Positions 51,358-60,914 of a stretch of 64,000 nucleotides of DNA are shown piece by piece. This stretch comes from Niastella vici (GTDB lineage Bacteria > Bacteroidota > Bacteroidia > Chitinophagales > Chitinophagaceae). Where the stretch lies: NCBI RefSeq assembly GCF_002077945.1, contig NZ_LVYD01000048.1, positions 62,001 to 126,000 on the forward strand, written 5' to 3'. The translations under genes and the position numbers were made by a program. Each line of letters starts with the position of its first letter. The stretch's first letter is position 1. The notes below the pieces were generated by a model. The model had not been told where the DNA came from and did no database searches. It saw only the letters and a program-made list of their open reading frames with translations.

Positions 51358-52608
51358 CTACTTATTACTGCGTTTGATCACCAGGAAGTTGGCCAGCCAC
51401 TGAAAGGCAACGAATGCTATAATAAATGCTTTTATAATGATTGTAGTAGCGCTATTGTTTGTAAATGCCATCCATATTGCAACCAGCCCGAATACAGCCA
51501 TTGCAATAGTGTAGAGCATTATTGAATTGTACTTTGAAGGCCAAAACATCATGCCGCATAAAACCATCATGGCAAAGCCATAGATAGCCACCACCAGGTA
51601 TTTATCCTGCATTGAGTATATAAACATAAACAGCCCACTCAACAAAACAACCAGGCTTATAGCAACAAAATTGGAACTCATTTTTTCCTTTTTGTTGAGC
51701 AGGAATTTGCCATAGGCATTAAACCGCAGGAACAAATTGCTGATTGGTTTTATGACCCAGGTTGAAAAAGCAAACAATGCCAGTACAATGACTACCGGAA
51801 TAAGAAATGGCTGCAGGCTGGGGTTTGCATCTGCCAGCCTACTTAACGCCTGCGTACCAACAAAAAGCCCCACAATAAAAGCCCATTGATATTTGGCCGA
51901 AAGGTTACCCATCCAAAATGAGAACTTCAGGAACATTCTGTACACCGGATTGCTGGCTTTCAGCGCTTCAATCATTCCGCGTTGCGCATACTCAAAATTG
52001 GGATCGTTCTTCAACGCTTCCTTAAAATGCTTTAATGCCTTTTTATGATCGCCTTTCTCAAGCAGTCCCCAGCCATAGTTGGCATGCGTATAGGCATCAT
52101 TGGGATTATATCGTAACGCACCTTCGATCGTTTGGAACGATTCGTTTTTTCTATTCAGCTTTATCAAAGCGGTACTTCGCACATTCAGGCCCAGCAGGTT
52201 TTCGGGGTCTACCGCCAATGCCTGATTGGCCAGGCGCAGGGATTCGTCAAACTGTTTGCGGCCTAATTTTATATGTGCCCACCAGGCAAAATAATCAGCT
52301 GTATAGGGATCCAGTTCAACGGCCTGTCTAATACTGTTTTCAGCATCATCATACTTATCTTTCTGAATATCGACCCGCGATTTAATGAAGTATAAATGCG
52401 GCGTATCAGGAGAAAGGCCAATGGCGTCTTCCACAATGCTTTCAGCCTGGCTTAACCGGTCCTGCTGCAAATTTATTTCTGCCAGCAGCGATAAATAATG
52501 AATATTGGTGGGCTCCTGGGCCAGTAACTGTCTTAATATTTTTTCTGCAGCGTCGTACTTCTTTTGTTGAATAAGAATACCAACTTTCGAGATGCTATGC
52601 TCCGTCAT
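51358..52608 (-). CDS. TPR-repeat protein with C-terminal membrane domain
   Basis: The 416-residue protein has tetratricopeptide repeats over about 1-225 (for example YDDAENSIRQAVELDPYTAD and KALKHFKEALKNDPNFEYA). The C-terminal half has about six hydrophobic helices (about 242-405), with FIVGLFVGTQAL, PFLIPVVIVLALFAFSTWVI and LMFIYSMQ. The TPR region should face the cytoplasm. Its ATG begins one base after the stop of the AAA-ATPase gene, so translation is probably coupled and the two proteins may interact. Function unknown. Confidence 0.85.
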   Translation of the reverse strand: MTEHSISKVGILIQQKKYDAAEKILRQLLAQEPTNIHYLSLLAEINLQQDRLSQAESIVEDAIGLSPDTPHLYFIKSRVDIQKDKYDDAENSIRQAVELDPYTADYFAWWAHIKLGRKQFDESLRLANQALAVDPENLLGLNVRSTALIKLNRKNESFQTIEGALRYNPNDAYTHANYGWGLLEKGDHKKALKHFKEALKNDPNFEYAQRGMIEALKASNPVYRMFLKFSFWMGNLSAKYQWAFIVGLFVGTQALSRLADANPSLQPFLIPVVIVLALFAFSTWVIKPISNLFLRFNAYGKFLLNKKEKMSSNFVAISLVVLLSGLFMFIYSMQDKYLVVAIYGFAMMVLCGMMFWPSKYNSIMLYTIAMAVFGLVAIWMAFTNNSATTIIIKAFIIAFVAFQWLANFLVIKRSNK

Positions 52609-52609
52609 G

Positions 52610-53920
52610 TCACTTCTTTATTTTTAAATAGGATAGAATGTCGTCGTACAAACCGGCGTCATTGGCAAACATCGCAAAATTCTTTGCGGTCATAAACCAT
52701 TCCTGGGTGCTTGCCTTATGCTTTTTAACGGCATTCAACAGGTCCTTTGTTTCAATGGGTTTGGGCACACCATCTTCGAAAGAGGATTCCAGTTTTAATT
52801 CAATAGCAATATCAATGATGGCATCAAGATCGGCGCCTGAGTAGTGTTCTGTCTTTTTTGCCAGCTGTGAATAATCGATGGAGCTAACCGGTTTGTTCTT
52901 CAATTTCAATTGTAAGATCGACTCGCGGGTTGTTTCGTCTGGCGGGGGAACAAACACGATGCGGTCGAACCGGCCCGGCCGTCTGAATGCAGGGTCCAGG
53001 TTCCAGGGCGTATTGGTGGCGCCAATGATCAAAACGCCTTCGTTGGTTTTATCTATTCCATCCAGCTCCTGTAGAAATTGATTGATGAGGTGGCGGCCGG
53101 CCGATTGTTTCATATCGCTTCTGCTGGCGCCCAACGCATCTATTTCATCAATAAACAAAATGCAGGGGGTATTAAAACGGGCCAGCTCGAATATTTCATG
53201 CAGGTTCTTCTCGCTGTTCCCGATCCACATGTCAAGGATATCGTTCAATCCTACGCTGATGAATTTTGCATTTACCTGTCCGGCAGTTGCTTTTGCCAGG
53301 AAGGTTTTTCCGCATCCCGGCGGGCCATACAACAAAATACCACCGCCTATCTTTTTACCGTATGCTTTGTACAGTTCAGGATGCAACAGGGGTTTTATGA
53401 TCTTTAATTCGATCTCTTTTTTAACGGCGTCCATGCCGCCCACATCACTGAAATTGATGGAAGGCTTTTGTAAAAAACGGCTGTCGTATACCTCTTCTTC
53501 CGGTTCGCTGGTTTCACGGCCGCCTTTTACCCGCAACTGGCTATCGAGCTCCTCATCAAAGAAGTTCGGGTCAATGGACAATACTCTTTTATACGTTTCT
53601 ATAGCCCGTGAAACAGAATTTTCTTTTAGCAACCCTTTGGCATACCAGGTAAGCGCCTCAAGATCTTCGTGGCCGTTCTCGATAAATTCTTCCAGTATTA
53701 CATTACAGGCAGAATAATTTCCTTTTTTGTAGAAGACTTTCGCCAGCCCGATCGTTGCTTTTGTGTCGTTCGATGATTTCAGCACCAACCTGTATTCAAC
53801 CTCTGCTTCTTCCAACCGGTTCAAACCCAATAAAGTGTCGGCCAGCAGCAATCTTAATGGCGTATTATTGGGTGAGTGTTTTAATGCTTCCCGCAAACTC
53901 TCAATTGTGTTCTCGTTCAT
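52610..53920 (-). CDS. AAA-ATPase with N-terminal TPR repeats
   Basis: The 436-residue protein has TPR-like helices at about 5-125, a linker, and one classical AAA module (about 155-430). Walker A is GPPGCGKT (199-206), Walker B is ILFIDEID (Asp258, Glu259), sensor 1 is GATN (Asn303), and arginine fingers lie in FRRPGRFDR. A pore-loop-like WIGNSEKN resembles katanin/Cdc48-type AAA proteins that thread or remodel polypeptides. It is coupled to the TPR-membrane gene downstream. A remodelling ATPase docked at the membrane is a reasonable model but unproven. Confidence 0.9.
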   Translation of the reverse strand: MNENTIESLREALKHSPNNTPLRLLLADTLLGLNRLEEAEVEYRLVLKSSNDTKATIGLAKVFYKKGNYSACNVILEEFIENGHEDLEALTWYAKGLLKENSVSRAIETYKRVLSIDPNFFDEELDSQLRVKGGRETSEPEEEVYDSRFLQKPSINFSDVGGMDAVKKEIELKIIKPLLHPELYKAYGKKIGGGILLYGPPGCGKTFLAKATAGQVNAKFISVGLNDILDMWIGNSEKNLHEIFELARFNTPCILFIDEIDALGASRSDMKQSAGRHLINQFLQELDGIDKTNEGVLIIGATNTPWNLDPAFRRPGRFDRIVFVPPPDETTRESILQLKLKNKPVSSIDYSQLAKKTEHYSGADLDAIIDIAIELKLESSFEDGVPKPIETKDLLNAVKKHKASTQEWFMTAKNFAMFANDAGLYDDILSYLKIKK

Positions 53921-54126: not shown

Positions 54127-54708
54127 TCAATGCATACAGCCCATGTATACATCCTGTTTAACTATTTTTGTGGTTGGAATTTTATTTTTCAGGAGCGCAG
54201 CTACACTATCAGCTGCCTTTTGTTCGGCGTACATGCCGGCTACCGCTACCATTTTTAATTTATCTGCGTTCTCATCATCGAATTCATTCGACATTTCTAT
54301 ACTAACGAAATTACCTTCATGGTATGGTCTTCTTGGATAATATTCACCCCGGTATATTTCATCATCAGAATTGTCTGGAACAACGATCCCTTTTCCTGAT
54401 TTATAAATACGGTCAAGCATACTGAACTTTGAGCTCAGGATGGTAACAGCATTTGATGAAATGCTTTTTAAAGAATCGAAGTTATGGCCGGTAGCCACTT
54501 CAACAATATAATAGGGTGCATTTTGCGAACCGGTGTCAGATACAGAGAGTTTATCAAAATCAATCGCGGTATCAGAAGCAGCTGCTACTTTCAGTGTGTC
54601 TGTTGGAACCTTATTGGCTGAAGCGGGTTTTTGTGAGCAGGAGGCAAGTAGCAATAAAATAACAAAAGAGCTTATTGGTGTAATAGTGCGCCTTACTGGT
54701 GTGTACAT
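54127..54708 (-). CDS. Hypothetical lipoprotein, 193 residues
   Basis: The signal has a lipobox at LLLASCSQKPAS (Cys near 24), so the protein is a lipoprotein. The mature part has a compact alpha/beta region (about 68-190, with APYYIVEVATGHNFDSLKSI and KLKMVAVAGMYAEQKAADSV) whose two halves look like a SPOR-type duplication, which I do not regard as secure. The last residues are DVYMGCMH. It lies between the AAA-ATPase gene and the PNGase F-like gene on the same strand, with about 180 bases on each side. Function unknown. Confidence 0.7.
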   Translation of the reverse strand: MYTPVRRTITPISSFVILLLLASCSQKPASANKVPTDTLKVAAASDTAIDFDKLSVSDTGSQNAPYYIVEVATGHNFDSLKSISSNAVTILSSKFSMLDRIYKSGKGIVVPDNSDDEIYRGEYYPRRPYHEGNFVSIEMSNEFDDENADKLKMVAVAGMYAEQKAADSVAALLKNKIPTTKIVKQDVYMGCMH

Positions 54709-54891: not shown

Positions 54892-56868
54892 CTAGCCGGG
54901 CATCCTTTGCACTACACGTATCCGTTTATTGAAAACCAGTTTGCCTTTTATAAATACTTTCAAATAATATCGTTGTGGTGAGCGGTAAGAAAGATCATAT
55001 TGAAATACACCTTCTTTAAGATTATGATATTGGTGTTCTTCCACCACTTCATTATTGCCGCCATCGGCAACAATTTGAACCAACGGATCTTGTGGCCCAT
55101 TGCTGAAATAATCCATCGTTACATTCCCTTTCGTCATTGTCGGAAACAGACCAACTAATATTTCCTCACTGGGCTTTGACCATTGCAGGCTATCGGGCGA
55201 CACTATAAATTCATAATTCAATGAGTTGCCAAAGTCTGATTCAAAGTTTTTCAACAGCTGTCCTTTTGCATCCAGTAACTGGCAGGTTCCGCGTCCGGCT
55301 TTAACCGCATACCAGAATTCAAGCCCATTTCCTGCTGTATCCTGCACGTCAAAACGATAACCACCCGGCTGCAGCTCAATGGTATCCCTATACAAAGTAT
55401 CTTTTTTGAGCGACCCCAACGGGCGTTCAAAAACGGATTGTCCCGCAACATTTTTAACACTGAAACTATTATCCATGGGCCGGTTATTCGTCCTGAATTG
55501 TATAATGACCTTATTGCCGTGAACGGGAACGCTTTGAAAATTGCTTATGATCTTATTATCGGCCAGGTAGCCGTCCTTTTTGCCGTTTGGCTCATCAATA
55601 ACAACAGCAAACTCATTCAGCCCTTTATTACTTTCAATATTTCCCGGCAAAGAGATCTCTTCGGTTTGATTGAAAGCAAGATCACCTTTCCATTTGAAAA
55701 CCCGGGTAGGAAATCCTTTGGTTCCATACCTGATAAGACAGGAAGTTAAATTCGAAGCGCCATTGTTTTTAATAACGATAACCGGGTTTATACAGGCCGG
55801 ATTCTTTCTGCGGTAAATATCAGTTGTTGATGGCACTATTACTTCTTCGAGCGAAGCATCGGTTGTTGAGGCAGGTGAAGCATATTCGATGAGGTAGGCA
55901 AAAATATTTTCCTGCACATTGCGATCGCTCGTTTGGTAAGGCTCCATTTGAATATCGAATACATTTTCCTGTTTGGCAACGATCGGCTCACTAAGGACCT
56001 CAGGTTGGTTCAAATACCCGGGGCACCAGTTGGCGCGATCGATCACCCAGGTGCCGGCTTGTGGATACAACGGATTATCACCGCATTTTTTCCAGAGGTT
56101 TGTTTTCTTTGCCAGCTTGTTATTCCACCATATTTCCCGGTAACGGCTGCAAAATTCGCCACAATCGGAACTATCCATTCCATGGCCTGTTTGCAATACA
56201 TACAACCGTGCATTAGTGCTTTTGTCTGCGGGTTGAAAGCGGTAAGGGCGCAGCTCATTCTCTATGGGCGCCGCCGCATTCCCATACTGGAACGTGGCGT
56301 TATAAACCGGGTGAAAGGCTACCGGCTGGGCTATTGCCGGTCCTTTAATGAAAGAAAAAGCCAGTTGGATCTTCCAGCCGCGATCTTTATTTTCTTCATA
56401 CCCCGAATGAATATATTCTATTTCAACGCTGTCTCTTAACACCAGACTGAAATCGGTAATCTCAACCTGCCATTGAAAATGCCAGTCTTTTGAAAAAGCG
56501 CCGCCATAAGGCGTAAGCATTTGAGCAATGGTATAGTTGAGAACGGGAGCGCTTTGACTACCCTTCCGTTTCAGCACGATGCGGTCTGAATAATCCCAGT
56601 CGGCACAACGCATGGAATCGGGACAGCCAAATTTCACATACAGCATGATCTTTCGTATGGGCAAATCTTTGCCGGGGAACAGGGCCCAGCGACTGTAGGG
56701 GTTCACGCCTTTTGATGGATCGGTCACCACTTTATCAAATGAAACTACAACGGTGGAAGTATCAGAAGCAAAGGAAACAATTCCCTGCACCATACAGGCA
56801 AACAGAAAGATTGCTGTCCTTTGCCATTTGATAAAAGTTCTGGTTGTTCTCATATTACCTGGCTTCAT
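54892..56868 (-). CDS. PNGase F-like secreted glycoamidase with type IX-like C-terminal domain
   Basis: The start is the ATG at 56868 (658 residues); a TTG three codons upstream is less likely. A signal peptide ends near residue 35 (VSFAS). PNGase F landmarks follow: FGCPDSMRCADWDYSDR, where Asp92 lines up with catalytic Asp60 of PNGase F; DCGEFCSRYREIWW, where Glu238 lines up with Glu206; and WVIDRANWCPG. The position of Glu118 appears to be His154 or nearby. A C-terminal beta domain (about 575-658, with LVGLFPTMTKGNVTMDYF) looks like a type IX sorting domain. The known family removes N-glycans from proteins; activity here is likely but altered residues leave doubt. Confidence 0.82.
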   Translation of the reverse strand: MKPGNMRTTRTFIKWQRTAIFLFACMVQGIVSFASDTSTVVVSFDKVVTDPSKGVNPYSRWALFPGKDLPIRKIMLYVKFGCPDSMRCADWDYSDRIVLKRKGSQSAPVLNYTIAQMLTPYGGAFSKDWHFQWQVEITDFSLVLRDSVEIEYIHSGYEENKDRGWKIQLAFSFIKGPAIAQPVAFHPVYNATFQYGNAAAPIENELRPYRFQPADKSTNARLYVLQTGHGMDSSDCGEFCSRYREIWWNNKLAKKTNLWKKCGDNPLYPQAGTWVIDRANWCPGYLNQPEVLSEPIVAKQENVFDIQMEPYQTSDRNVQENIFAYLIEYASPASTTDASLEEVIVPSTTDIYRRKNPACINPVIVIKNNGASNLTSCLIRYGTKGFPTRVFKWKGDLAFNQTEEISLPGNIESNKGLNEFAVVIDEPNGKKDGYLADNKIISNFQSVPVHGNKVIIQFRTNNRPMDNSFSVKNVAGQSVFERPLGSLKKDTLYRDTIELQPGGYRFDVQDTAGNGLEFWYAVKAGRGTCQLLDAKGQLLKNFESDFGNSLNYEFIVSPDSLQWSKPSEEILVGLFPTMTKGNVTMDYFSNGPQDPLVQIVADGGNNEVVEEHQYHNLKEGVFQYDLSYRSPQRYYLKVFIKGKLVFNKRIRVVQRMPG

Positions 56869-56918
56869 AATGTACAAAGAAAAGCCATTAGCAATACAGT
56901 GAGCATAAAAAAATTGAA

Positions 56919-57071
56919 TTACTTCTTAAGAAGGCGCTTTATATACTCATAGTTACAATCCTTTTCGTCGAGTATTTTCATAACAAACGTTTGCGCTTTT
57001 GTATCAGCGGTAATATTAGTCCAGTTATAGGCATCTTCGGTTTGTTTGGCTAGGAAAGAGACCTGGTTCAT
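56919..57071 (-). CDS. Small hypothetical protein, 50 residues
   Basis: An ATG frame of 50 codons (MNQVSFLAKQTEDAYNWTNI at the start, YEYIKRLLKK at the end) begins 4 bases after the stop of the preceding membrane-protein gene, so it is likely the last gene of that operon. The first 20 residues recall the start of DinB-like proteins (KQTEDAYxWT), which would make this a remnant, but the rest does not fit. It is shorter than most automatic gene cut-offs and may be missed elsewhere. Confidence 0.45.
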   Translation of the reverse strand: MNQVSFLAKQTEDAYNWTNITADTKAQTFVMKILDEKDCNYEYIKRLLKK

Positions 57072-57075
57072 ATAA

Positions 57076-57525
57076 TTATTGTTTATCTGAAAATATTTTC
57101 GGAATTAATTTTCTGCAAACGAAATACGACAAAGTGTTAATCACTCCAAGCATACATCCCATCAGAAAAAGATTCACTGCAACCATTGCCTCTGGTTTTC
57201 CATTTACCAATAATATTAATAGTGATGCTACCGAAATAAATAAAGCAAATGCAAGTATTTTAATTATGTAACTGGAAAAGCCTTTATTATTTACGTGCCT
57301 GTTCAATAGCTCAGCTATGGTCAGTTGATAAAAAGTGGTTATGGCAACTATTACAAAAATACTAACCAGGTAAAAAGTGTTGCTAAGGTTATATACCTCG
57401 CAGTCTTTGACATCGGTCTCTAAAGTATGTTTATCAATAAGCCAAAAACAGCCAACAAAAACAGTCGTTCCAATTGTAACTGGAACGACTGTATTGATCA
57501 ATATGTTAAGAATCTTATTCATCAT
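57076..57525 (-). CDS. Small four-helix membrane protein, unknown
   Basis: The 149-residue protein has four hydrophobic segments (about 12-30, 47-68, 85-108 and 115-137). I do not recognise a family. Its start overlaps the stop of the upstream lipoprotein gene by four bases (ATGA), and a small frame starts 4 bases after its end. This tight packing places it in an operon with the ABC ATPase at 59658. Confidence 0.75.
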   Translation of the reverse strand: MMNKILNILINTVVPVTIGTTVFVGCFWLIDKHTLETDVKDCEVYNLSNTFYLVSIFVIVAITTFYQLTIAELLNRHVNNKGFSSYIIKILAFALFISVASLLILLVNGKPEAMVAVNLFLMGCMLGVINTLSYFVCRKLIPKIFSDKQ

Positions 57526-58136
57526 TTATAATTTTTAGGGTCAAACCCCTCTAAATAACTGATCTTCCATATTCCGTTATTCCCGGATGCTTTTACCTTA
57601 TACATAAACCCACCGCCCCAGGTCCAGGAGAAGGTTGCCTGATCATTAATGATCTTGAGATCTGTAATTCTTAAAATATCCCAAAAATTATCCTGGGGAG
57701 TATCCTGACAATTGCACCAGGGATTGGTATCATCTCCAAATGGTGACAGCTCTCCAACCTGCCAGGTCTTTATTCCATTTTGTAATTCCGAATCAATATG
57801 TGTAGCAATGGCCGCATAATTTGTGATAAACTGCTGGTCGAAATAATTGCTTTTTACAATGGTATTTAGCAGCTTATTATACGCATCCCAATTTATTCCG
57901 GAATATAAAGTATCTGAAGGTTTATTTGTTTCCACATCAAAATCTAAAGGATGATCTATTTTTTCATGCCATTCATACATCTGCCTGACGAGTTTCGTCA
58001 ATGCAATACTGTCCTTACTGTTATCAGCATTTTTAACAGTGGGGCTTTCTACCTTACCAGAGCTTCCTGCATTATTGCAACCTGCTAACAATAATAATGT
58101 ACTTACAATGAAAACAACTGAATTTACAATTTTCAT
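57522..58136 (-). CDS. Hypothetical lipoprotein, 204 residues
   Basis: The signal has a lipobox LLLLAGCNN (Cys near 20). The mature domain is unknown to me: an N-terminal linker, helices with LTKLVRQMYEWHEKIDHPLD, then a beta-rich part with DILRITDLKIINDQATFSWT that resembles lumazine-binding/DUF3828-like folds. Position in a packed operon (16 bases after the permease-like gene, 4-base overlap with the next) suggests a link to the ABC system. Confidence 0.75.
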   Translation of the reverse strand: MKIVNSVVFIVSTLLLLAGCNNAGSSGKVESPTVKNADNSKDSIALTKLVRQMYEWHEKIDHPLDFDVETNKPSDTLYSGINWDAYNKLLNTIVKSNYFDQQFITNYAAIATHIDSELQNGIKTWQVGELSPFGDDTNPWCNCQDTPQDNFWDILRITDLKIINDQATFSWTWGGGFMYKVKASGNNGIWKISYLEGFDPKNYK

Positions 58137-58152
58137 CTTATGAATTTAGTAA

Positions 58153-59646
58153 TTAATTCTCCGGCAACGAATACCACCTCCGGTAAACCTTGTGGATATA
58201 GGTTGCCAGTAAAACGAGTAATAATAACGAACCGCCGATCTCTGCATACAGAAAATAATGGTCCCAAATACCTTTTGGATCAAATGGAGTATCTACCTGT
58301 TTATAATGCCGGTTCCTCGCAATGGCACGACACCAGCCAACGATCACTATAGGCAAAATTGTTATAATAAATACAAACAGGTTGATTCCGATACCTGTTA
58401 TTGCGAATCTTTTTTTGTTTGCCCATGCTGCCAGTGAAAAAATGAAAAACAGGAACACATAAATAACAAACATGGCATAAACAGCTATTTCATCAAAATG
58501 GGAAAATGAAAATAGCAACGCTGAAAAAATAACCAGTAATACGCCCGTCAGCAATGACAGAAAAAATGCGCGCACAGTTGAATGTCTGAAAATAAAGATC
58601 AGCAAAGTGATACCCAGGGTTAAATAATAAAATATTCTCACCCCTTCAGTCAGCCACCTGCCTTCCCAGCGGTATTTCTTTACAACAACATTTGAAATAC
58701 TACTATTTACAGGTTCTAGCTGATATTTATCATAAATCCTCGCAAATGGACCAGGACGCTCAACATCAGCCGCTCCCCAATCCAATTTTTCAGAGTACCT
58801 GTATTTATGAAGCAATACATTTAGTTCTTTACTGATCTTTTCCCGGGCGGCCGGTGCAGGTGGATGCCTATGTATTTTGTGAAAAAGTTCAAAAGCAGTT
58901 AACACCTTCGTTTTTGTATTATCATCTGCTGAATAGCCGGAAACAAAATCAAAGGGCGGCGTATTGTACATCAGATACATGGTATCATTCATCTTAATCA
59001 AACTATCTGTCATGCTCATAGTTCTATAAAACCCTGCAGAATCTAACCTGAAAAAAAGAGGTTTCTCTTTCGCCGTATCTAAATCATTGTAGTCGGAATA
59101 ACGCAATGCATCCTCAGATATTTCATTCTCACTTTTTTTCAGGACTATGGTATCGTATCTCCAGGCTGTCTTATATAAAGAGTATTCCAGCTGGCCTAAT
59201 TTAAAGTTGATATCATTTACATCCCGCACTATTTCTTCGTCGCCATAAGCAATATTTGCTCTAATGCTTTCAACAACCGGATGTACGAAGGCAAACAATA
59301 TAATAATGCCTGTAGCAATAAAATATAAGATAAACGAAACAAGCCCATGCATTGGCTTAATGTTACCATACTTTTTAAATACATTGAACCGAAGCAGGTA
59401 TATAAGCCATACAATAAGCCCTATTACTGAAATAATTGATACAAACCCTATCCAGTATTCAGTGGTGGAGTTGGCCCTTACATCCTTTGGTTCCAGAAAA
59501 CAAAGCGCCGCAAGAGTCAGTATAAACAAAATACCATAATACAATACCAGCTGTATACGCGTACTCCAAATGCCGGGATTATTCAGCAATAATTTCTGCT
59601 CAGCTCTTTTAAGAAACCCTGGCATCAGGGGTCTTTCTATATTCAT
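58153..59646 (-). CDS. Membrane protein with large extracytoplasmic loop, candidate ABC permease
   Basis: The 497-residue protein has about three N-terminal helices (near 30-50, 65-86 and 100-122), a soluble loop of about 200 residues (125-325), then five or so helices (to about 490). Extended loops of this kind occur in ABC exporter permeases, but no conserved motif identifies the family. It starts 11 bases after the ABC ATPase stop. A partner permease is the simplest reading; the substrate is unknown. Confidence 0.7.
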   Translation of the reverse strand: MNIERPLMPGFLKRAEQKLLLNNPGIWSTRIQLVLYYGILFILTLAALCFLEPKDVRANSTTEYWIGFVSIISVIGLIVWLIYLLRFNVFKKYGNIKPMHGLVSFILYFIATGIIILFAFVHPVVESIRANIAYGDEEIVRDVNDINFKLGQLEYSLYKTAWRYDTIVLKKSENEISEDALRYSDYNDLDTAKEKPLFFRLDSAGFYRTMSMTDSLIKMNDTMYLMYNTPPFDFVSGYSADDNTKTKVLTAFELFHKIHRHPPAPAAREKISKELNVLLHKYRYSEKLDWGAADVERPGPFARIYDKYQLEPVNSSISNVVVKKYRWEGRWLTEGVRIFYYLTLGITLLIFIFRHSTVRAFFLSLLTGVLLVIFSALLFSFSHFDEIAVYAMFVIYVFLFFIFSLAAWANKKRFAITGIGINLFVFIITILPIVIVGWCRAIARNRHYKQVDTPFDPKGIWDHYFLYAEIGGSLLLLVLLATYIHKVYRRWYSLPEN

Positions 59647-59657
59647 GGGTAATAGTA

Positions 59658-60788
59658 TTAAATAAAGCGTTTGGTTGAATGGGTAATGTCGCGGAAGTAG
59701 GTAATGGGAATATTTCCTTTGACCAGTTTTGCTAAAATATCCTGTGCCCGCAAAGCGGAGGAAGTAATGGTATAGAAGCCGCCATTATATTGTAATACGC
59801 CCTGTCCATTCAACGCATTCACCAACGCCGCTCTGCTGGCGGTTGTTTCCAGTTCCACCACGAATGCGGTGGCAGTCTTTTCCAGTTCACCGGTCCTGAA
59901 CAAACACGAACCATTTTTGATAAGCAATACAGTATCTGCAATTTTTTCTACCTCGTGCAATTGCTGCGAGCTCAACAGTATGCCCATGGGGTTGTGCACC
60001 GATTTGGCCATGAACTGCAGATCGGTCAAAATGCTTTGCTGTGCATTGATGTCAAGATTGGCTAACGGCTCATCCAATATCAGCAGCCTGGGTTTCTGTA
60101 ATAAAATGCGTGCTATCTCGAACCGGGTGCGGTAGCCGCTGCTGATCTGGCTCCAGGTAAGATGGGCATAAGGCGTGAGATCGAGCCGTTCGAGCATGAA
60201 GTCAACCATAACGTTATTCACTTCACCAGTGACTCCCGAAATGGCTGCGGAAAAGTGGAGATTGTCTTTTAATGATCCATACCACCTGGGTATACGCTGC
60301 GGTATAAATGCGAGGTGGTGTTTTATATCGTAGTGATCAGGTTCTTTTAGCTGTGCAAAATCAAGGTCGCCCGAATCCAATGCCAGTTGCCCCGCTATAC
60401 AACGCAACAGGGTGGTTTTACCATTGCCATTCTCCCCTACCACGCCAATCACATCACCGGTATGTATCTGAAGGCTTATTGGCCGCAAACTGAAATTACC
60501 TGCAGCATACGTTTTAATAATGTCCCGGGCGGTGACCAACAGGGTGGTTTGATAAGTAAACCGTTCGGTAGCATTATTGATCCTGTTCAGTAGTGCATGG
60601 GCCGATTCAAAGAAAGCTGGTGGTACTATCGTTTCTTTATATTGCCGGTAACTTTGGCTAACCTGAATGGCTTCTTTTAGCAATGTCATATCGGCCGTAT
60701 CAAGCGAAGCATCCAGTATCCGTCTTACTGCTAATGAATGGTCATTGTGCTGCAGGTAGCTTTGAATTTCTCCAATTCTTGTATGCAT
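59658..60788 (-). CDS. ABC transporter ATP-binding protein with extra N-terminal region
   Basis: I chose the ATG at 60788 (376 residues); the upstream frame to 60848 is hydrophobic and unlikely. About 85 helical residues precede the ATPase domain. Walker A is GENGNGKTT (near 119), the signature is ISSGYRTRFEIARIL, and Walker B is LLILDEPLANLD. The H-loop position reads SSQQLHEVEKIAD, so His is replaced by Gln. It heads an operon with a permease-like gene, a lipoprotein and two small genes. Substrate unknown; an exporter is more likely than an importer, since no binding protein is visible. Confidence 0.88.
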   Translation of the reverse strand: MHTRIGEIQSYLQHNDHSLAVRRILDASLDTADMTLLKEAIQVSQSYRQYKETIVPPAFFESAHALLNRINNATERFTYQTTLLVTARDIIKTYAAGNFSLRPISLQIHTGDVIGVVGENGNGKTTLLRCIAGQLALDSGDLDFAQLKEPDHYDIKHHLAFIPQRIPRWYGSLKDNLHFSAAISGVTGEVNNVMVDFMLERLDLTPYAHLTWSQISSGYRTRFEIARILLQKPRLLILDEPLANLDINAQQSILTDLQFMAKSVHNPMGILLSSQQLHEVEKIADTVLLIKNGSCLFRTGELEKTATAFVVELETTASRAALVNALNGQGVLQYNGGFYTITSSALRAQDILAKLVKGNIPITYFRDITHSTKRFI

Positions 60789-60914
60789 GGGGTTTTTGGT
60801 TGGTATAAAGATGCAGGAAAAAAAAGAAAATTGAAATACCAAACGCAAAAGCTCCGCCCCTTATTTTCATAAAGTAATGCTAATTCCAAAACAGATGCCG
60901 TATTTTTACTATAC

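Follow-up and report, generated by a model that had tools for sequence, protein, structure and literature searches.

A conserved ATPase and membrane-subunit pair forms a two-gene ABC unit of Bacteroidota, with a local insert beside it in Niastella vici

Do five tightly packed genes of the bacterium Niastella vici encode a single membrane system? The genes lie on the minus strand of a 64,000-nucleotide stretch of DNA (hereafter the window) from a 10.06-Mb genome whose host is a Niastella-type member of the Chitinophagaceae, phylum Bacteroidota, and an earlier note had suggested that they could be an undescribed ATP-binding cassette (ABC) system for export or envelope remodelling. In order, they encode an ABC ATPase (59658..60788; 376 amino acids from an ATG, or 396 from an alternative start, the upstream TTG at 60848), a membrane subunit of 497 amino acids with eight predicted helices (58153..59646), a 204-amino-acid lipoprotein (57522..58136), a 149-amino-acid four-helix membrane protein (57076..57525), and a 50-amino-acid frame (56919..57071). 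The frames and the spacings of 11, 16, −4 and 4 bases given in that note were confirmed exactly. Comparison with other genomes (numbered with the prefix G, the window's own being G000, and their loci with the prefix L) showed that the five frames are a two-gene conserved core, the ATPase and its membrane subunit, plus a local, partly decayed three-gene insert. Part of the original proposal stands, in that the pair is conserved, its membrane part belongs to no recognised family, and we found no description of it; the rest, a single five-gene system, is not supported.

Within Bacteroidota, the one phylum sampled, the family ATPase directly adjoined a relative of the membrane subunit on the same strand in all 26 loci compared (the window plus 9, 13 and 3 others), which are spread over the host's order and class. 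The 497-amino-acid protein had matches in 10 of 59 near genomes (its own included), at the level of the order in 13 of 298 genomes, and, in a phylum-wide sample, in 6 of 296 genomes with a narrow profile and 9 of 395 with a broad one; these tallies are rough, because few candidates were scored per genome, so that relatives may have been missed and a few matches are spurious. The distribution is patchy, and the complete genome of another member of the genus (G004) yielded no match to the 497-amino-acid protein. Sequence identity of the ATPase was 80–85% within the genus and 59–64% in two other genera. No third gene was seen to accompany the pair throughout the loci that were read (9 + 13), and, judged by conservation of the neighbourhood, the unit does not extend beyond the first two genes, probably a two-gene ABC machine of Bacteroidota. 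Weak matches to the membrane profile in three further genomes (G151, G517 and G670) lay in loci lacking the family ATPase and were kept outside the 26; among these three, the sole frame touched by the profile was one of 307 amino acids in G517 (14.2 bits). The shortened membrane protein of L013 was excluded from alignment A1, and the L041 ATPase (350 amino acids from the chosen start) from alignment A4.

The lipoprotein and the four-helix protein are variable accessory genes. Relatives of the lipoprotein, in whose sequence the signal LLLLAGC is visible, occur in 3 of the 59 near genomes, and relatives of the four-helix protein in 2 (the window's own included in both counts). When the loci of 22 relatives were compared, genes 3 and 4 stood beside the pair in G001 only, in which the copy of the 149-amino-acid protein is 24% identical to that of the window and the same order continues into a whole DinB_2 gene of 174 amino acids (E = 1.5e-14). 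A relative of the lipoprotein is also found in G029, a genome in which no relative of the membrane subunit was found. Six members of the genus (L012, L013, L014, L016, L017 and L018) keep the pair without genes 3–5. In L016 a PNGase F-like gene begins 84 bases after the membrane subunit, and in the window that gene lies behind gene 5. Genes 3–5 form a local insert, bounded by the pair on one side and the PNGase F-like gene on the other. L017 and L018 have a different lipoprotein after the pair, a 51–53% relative of window 54127–54708.

The 50-amino-acid frame, which had been counted as the fifth member of the system, turned out to be the 5′ stub of a DinB-family gene, after which the sequence is unrelated. 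Its first 19 residues are 74% identical to the 174-amino-acid DinB_2 protein that occupies the corresponding position in G001, and its DNA matches that gene at 30 of 35 bases (E = 3e-8, two-sequence comparison). Because this shared start is followed by divergence from the whole gene, we regard the frame as a stub; it gives no Pfam match, the remainder of the DinB_2 domain is missing from it, and it is probably not a functional gene. In addition, a terminator-like hairpin lies within the start of the 149-amino-acid gene (57461..57492, minus strand; codons 12–22), with a perfect 14-pair stem, a 4-base loop, a free energy of −20.4 kcal/mol and TTTT following, and a scan of the G001 copy of that gene found no hairpin on the same strand. 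Pfam and NCBIfam matches of the 149-amino-acid protein to MFS and holin families were weak and were put down to chance. The lipoprotein and the four-helix protein may assist the machine in the two species that have both, while lying outside the conserved machine.

What kind of machine is the conserved pair? Of the five frames, only the ATPase passed a Pfam cut-off (ABC_tran, E = 9.7e-25; 88.2 bits, cut-off 25), and none of the five passed an NCBIfam cut-off among the matches listed (25 of 193 for the ATPase). The ATPase comprises an EAD11-like helical N-domain (residues ~1–80), an ABC cassette (~85–300), and a ferredoxin-like C-domain (~305–371). The Walker A lysine, Q-loop glutamine, Walker B aspartate–glutamate and D-loop aspartate are present in all 13 family rows, and with its catalytic motifs kept in this way the family ATPase should hydrolyse ATP. 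In the signature motif, a tyrosine follows the glycine in 13 of 13 family rows, compared with 1 of the 69 other cassettes of the window genome. A tree of cassettes placed the 13 family rows (of 22) in one clade with support of 100/100 and a long stem. A PADLOC match to mad3 (E = 4.6e-21, the better of two stretches listed) covered cassette residues 213–293, and no defence assignment was made from it.

ABC systems have been sorted by the fold of their membrane part into types I–VII, and in the ABC-2 or type V exporters each subunit has six helices together with an amphipathic elbow helix (PMC8386196). The pair resembles the type V systems PmtCD, ABCA and DrrAB in combining a stand-alone ATPase that has a ferredoxin-like C-domain with a polytopic membrane subunit. 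A structure model of the ATPase reached a pLDDT of 47.6, with only its N- and C-domains usable, and modelled the C-terminal 65 residues as a ferredoxin-like fold (pLDDT ~80). The best Foldseek match of this model was the PmtCD exporter (6xji_C, E = 1.1e-3, probability 0.97), with lower matches to ABCA4 (E = 0.22) and to basket domains of PmtCD (E ~0.6). Searching the Protein Data Bank (PDB) with the single ATPase sequence likewise gave ABCA transporters as the best matches, and in three ABC-2-type ATPases of the window genome (L174, L189 and L166) the match of the family profile extended into the C-terminal part. VIA-align also found the C-domain to be ferredoxin-like (Z up to 7.4), with proteins other than ABC ATPases ranked first and mostly copper-chaperone/HMA and ACT-type domains among the 50 matches listed, and because the ferredoxin-like arrangement is common we claim no relative from that comparison. 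The ATPase thus leans, weakly, towards the type V exporters, from which the pair differs in that its membrane subunit has eight predicted helices and no recognisable ABC2_membrane domain and its ATPase has a glutamine at the H-loop position and an extra helical N-domain.

The membrane subunit itself gave fewer handles. Hydropathy averaged over 23 relatives showed 12 raw peaks, several of them overlapping, and these, combined with the helices that a low-confidence model predicts, give eight, of which three precede and five follow a loop of ~210 residues. This loop, for which the earlier note gave an outer loop of 200 residues, is predicted to be an extracytoplasmic domain between helices 3 and 4. 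Conserved basic loops lie on the presumed inner side, one of them between helices 2 and 3, and helix 1 is preceded by a predicted N-terminal helix that is moderately amphipathic (rank 59 of 483 windows of sequence). Searching Pfam with the window protein at E ≤ 10 gave no transporter match, including none to ABC2_membrane, LptF_LptG (PF03739), FtsX or MacB_PCD; at E ≤ 1, the 23 members gave no ABC2_membrane among the matches listed (25 of 29 families), and the families that did appear were scattered and weak. Among PDB sequences nothing scored better than E = 0.2. An AlphaFold2 model built on four rows had a pLDDT of 46.6 and its Foldseek search returned nothing at E ≤ 0.001, and we therefore claim no fold for this protein. 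We attribute to chance the matches to 7TMR-DISM (1 of 23 members, E = 0.0007), to Acyl_transf_3 (4 of 23, E = 0.003), to BasA of the bindosome (2 of 23, best E = 0.0028), and to J-domains (PDB sequences, E = 1.6–10).

Profile–profile comparison with hhalign against 30 ABC2_membrane_3, 30 ABC2_membrane_2 and 30 LptF/G proteins of related genomes gave probabilities of 0.3–2.8%, in a test whose power is unproven: over all comparisons with ABC-2 sets, disjoint subsets included, the membrane subunit reached 0.2–1.5%, but disjoint ABC-2 subsets (14 and 8 proteins) found each other at only 0.8%, and the 100% match between two ABC-2 sets involved sets in which 11 of 30 proteins were identical. The comparison is therefore without proven power, and this applies equally to the value of 2.8% for LptF/G (0.4% with a 9-row profile). 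LptF and LptG are laid out as three helices, a large periplasmic domain, and more helices, a layout that the predicted topology of the window protein resembles. It differs from the type VI system LptB2FG in lacking an LptF_LptG match and in having five predicted helices after the domain, and the ATPase differs in its two added domains. Overall, the Pfam search with the membrane protein returned no clear ABC-2 or MacAB match, and a distant kinship to ABC-2 permeases is weighed below. Judged from sequence, the pair is a member of the ABC superfamily with a membrane partner of no recognised family, and in the open-licence literature we found neither this pair nor an ABC ATPase with EAD11 described; the terms 'effector-associated domain' and 'ABC transporter' co-occurred in one paper, which uses them for other things.

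Two features of the periplasmic domain in relatives are worth recording. The membrane subunits at L047:4410–5936 and L048:5441–7318 have periplasmic domains full of short repeats of the LSY/SYR type, unlike the rest of the alignment. The N. soli subunit (L013:7001–8299), with 432 amino acids in total, has a shortened periplasmic domain, and part of the domain may therefore be dispensable.

The N-domain of the ATPase points in another direction. Effector-associated domains (EADs) are small, mostly helical domains presumed to link effectors with conflict systems through contacts between domains of the same kind (PMC7159879, PMC8195603); a text search of PMC8195603 found no mention of EAD11. In two distant relatives Pfam matched EAD11 (PF19964) to the N-domain of the ATPase: that of L048 scored 43.9 bits, which exceeds the cut-off of 26, and that of L047 fell just short at 21.3 bits. 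Of ten shorter N-domains scanned, three, including that of the window, matched EAD11 at E = 0.05–0.08 in the same register and seven did not match. A profile of 20 N-domains, made without L047 and L048, scored 23.2 over residues 5–48 when compared with EAD11 domains of other genomes (a set from which L220 and L221, with partial EAD11, were excluded), compared with at most 14.8 in 300 column shuffles and 14.3 for the reversed profile; with a smaller EAD11 set, the score was 20.7 compared with at most 18.0 in 200 shuffles. When 847 proteins (22 from the family and 825 others) were ranked by their EAD11 match, fifth place went to the window ATPase (7.4 bits, E = 0.075); one unrelated protein of 9.1 bits stood above it, and of the 22 family members only L048 and L047 surpassed that protein. 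Together, these comparisons indicate that the N-domain is EAD11-like and probably homologous to EAD11. Unlike other EAD11 proteins, the family joins this domain to an ABC cassette and not to an effector, and the window copy lies below the cut-off in a genome that offers it no EAD11 partner.

EAD11 was found 44 times in G208 and 4 times in G158, each count including that genome's own family ATPase, and 9 of the 11 pair-bearing genomes tested had no EAD11 match. Ten other EAD11 proteins from these two genomes (10 of 30 loci) had second matches to TIR (2), SIR2 (2), CHAT and trypsin domains, with iSTAND, FGE-sulfatase and DUF4384 as further partners and one ZapB match below the cut-off. G208 therefore holds a large EAD11 network (loci among L223–L252), several members of which are fused to TIR, SIR2, CHAT, iSTAND or FGE-sulfatase. 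In N. yeongjuensis (G009), two EAD11 proteins (L214 and L216) lie close together on one contig and appear by eye to be a TIR-like and a SIR2-like fusion.

The explanation that we favour, with a probability of roughly 0.55, is that the pair forms a 2+2 ABC machine that carries an adaptor-like domain on its cytosolic side and most likely serves as an exporter or flippase. In ABC proteins generally, two ATPases clamp together on ATP and thereby move two membrane subunits. By analogy with other ABC proteins, from which the 2+2 stoichiometry is taken, two family ATPases would power two copies of the eight-helix inner-membrane subunit with its large periplasmic domain, and the machine would most likely export or flip an envelope or amphipathic substrate. 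Through its ferredoxin-like C-domain, each ATPase would touch either the other ATPase or the membrane subunit, and its helical N-domain would be the docking site of a cytosolic partner, which would regulate the machine or deliver cargo to it.

Several results weigh against this explanation. No transporter homologous to the membrane subunit emerged from the Pfam or PDB sequence searches, and transport is therefore something that we infer. Both structure models are poor, and the PmtCD match leans on a model in which the cassette is mostly below a pLDDT of 50. With the family profile as the PDB query, OpuCA and ABCE-type proteins came out on top and ABCA3 next, and the C-domain alone gave no profile match to ABC-2 ATPases (0.8%); because the single-sequence and profile matches differ and ferredoxin-like folds are common, the lean towards type V is a weak one. 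The cassette tree gave the family no supported neighbour among the 69 cassettes of the window genome. The H-loop histidine, which is usual but not universal in ABC ATPases, is absent and replaced by glutamine in 22 of 22 rows of the larger alignment and in 13 of 13 of the smaller (the other 69 cassettes have histidine in 59, glutamine in 3, a gap in 5 and another residue in 2). The window N-domain scores 13.3 bits for EAD11 against the cut-off of 26, the hhalign probability between N-domain and EAD11 is 40.8%, and the window genome has no EAD11 match at E ≤ 0.01. Finally, the L047 and L048 membrane subunits, which accompany the best EAD11 matches, are weakly similar to that of the window (E = 6e-8 and 1.4e-5), and the ATPase of G638 (L254:3927–5072) lies in two frames beside a whole membrane subunit, either as a disrupted copy or through a sequencing error.

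A special case of the favoured explanation would make the pair an ABC-2 (type V) exporter of the ordinary kind with a permease too diverged to be recognised, which we consider a tenable possibility with odds clearly below even. The PmtCD and ABCA matches of the ATPase, the predicted helix before helix 1 and the conserved basic loop that joins helix 2 to helix 3 all fit such an exporter, and the low hhalign values with ABC-2 proteins do little to oppose it given that disjoint ABC-2 sets fare no better; yet the subunit has eight predicted helices and not six, its N-terminal helix ranks only as moderately amphipathic, and ABC2_membrane was missing from the Pfam searches described above. A different possibility is that the work of the pair is mechanical and no substrate crosses the membrane: ATP hydrolysis would move the periplasmic domain so as to extract lipids, activate an enzyme or signal, as exemplified by LptFG, FtsX and MacB. 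The LptF/G-like layout and the lack of a recognised transporter fold would suit this idea, which we nevertheless consider rather unlikely, as the LptF/G comparison stayed low (in the same unproven test), no LptF/G, FtsX or MacB family was matched, and the genus already has LptF/G genes of its own.

The pair might also serve a conflict network of the EAD type as an effector or sensor, its N-domain recruiting TIR, SIR2, CHAT or protease effectors. The family ATPases with the best EAD11 matches do sit in two genomes with further EAD11 proteins, among whose second matches are such effector domains, but EAD11 was not matched in the window genome or in 9 of the 11 pair-bearing genomes, so that the network does not reach the window recognisably, and no effector gene was seen regularly beside the pair. 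We consider this arrangement improbable, and are similarly doubtful of a further reading, in which a new class of ABC machine in Bacteroidota, with an unrecognised membrane fold and a helical adaptor of EAD11 lineage, would link membrane work to predicted bacterial conflict or cell-death signalling; in G208 and similar relatives the link would consist of EAD11–EAD11 contacts with TIR, SIR2 and CHAT proteins, and in the window lineage of a diverged, private partner. The idea that all five genes form one dedicated export or envelope-remodelling system is already largely refuted and deserves very little credence. It had in its favour the tight packing, the recurrence in order of both accessory genes and a complete DinB gene in G001, and the other lipoprotein after the pair in L017 and L018, but the pair lacks genes 3–5 in six other members of the genus, the fifth frame is truncated, and a strong terminator-like hairpin lies inside gene 4.

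The surroundings of the locus contain genes that recur near the pair elsewhere. The PNGase F-like gene downstream of the insert (54892–56877, minus strand; N-glycanase_C, E = 4.5e-13) is also near the pair in L016, L017 and L018. Further along, 51358–53920 (minus strand) encodes a 436-amino-acid AAA+ ATPase with tetratricopeptide repeats, identified via its L016 relative, and an adjoining 416-amino-acid neighbour; this gene pair is near the ABC pair in L012, L015, L016, L017 and L018, and by eye in L013. A Bacteroidetes-type promoter pattern had 2 matches in the window, compared with 2.45 expected, and none at this locus.

A conserved membrane subunit that is not assignable to a type by its sequence makes the pair a candidate for a strongly altered or an added ABC type. 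Adaptor networks built on EADs have been described for caspase-like, trypsin-like and other effectors (PMC7159879), and an ABC ATPase bearing EAD11, if truly such, would be a new link between ABC machines and these networks as far as the literature searched extends. Lastly, with its invariant H-loop glutamine, the family offers a natural test of how far the histidine at that position is replaceable.

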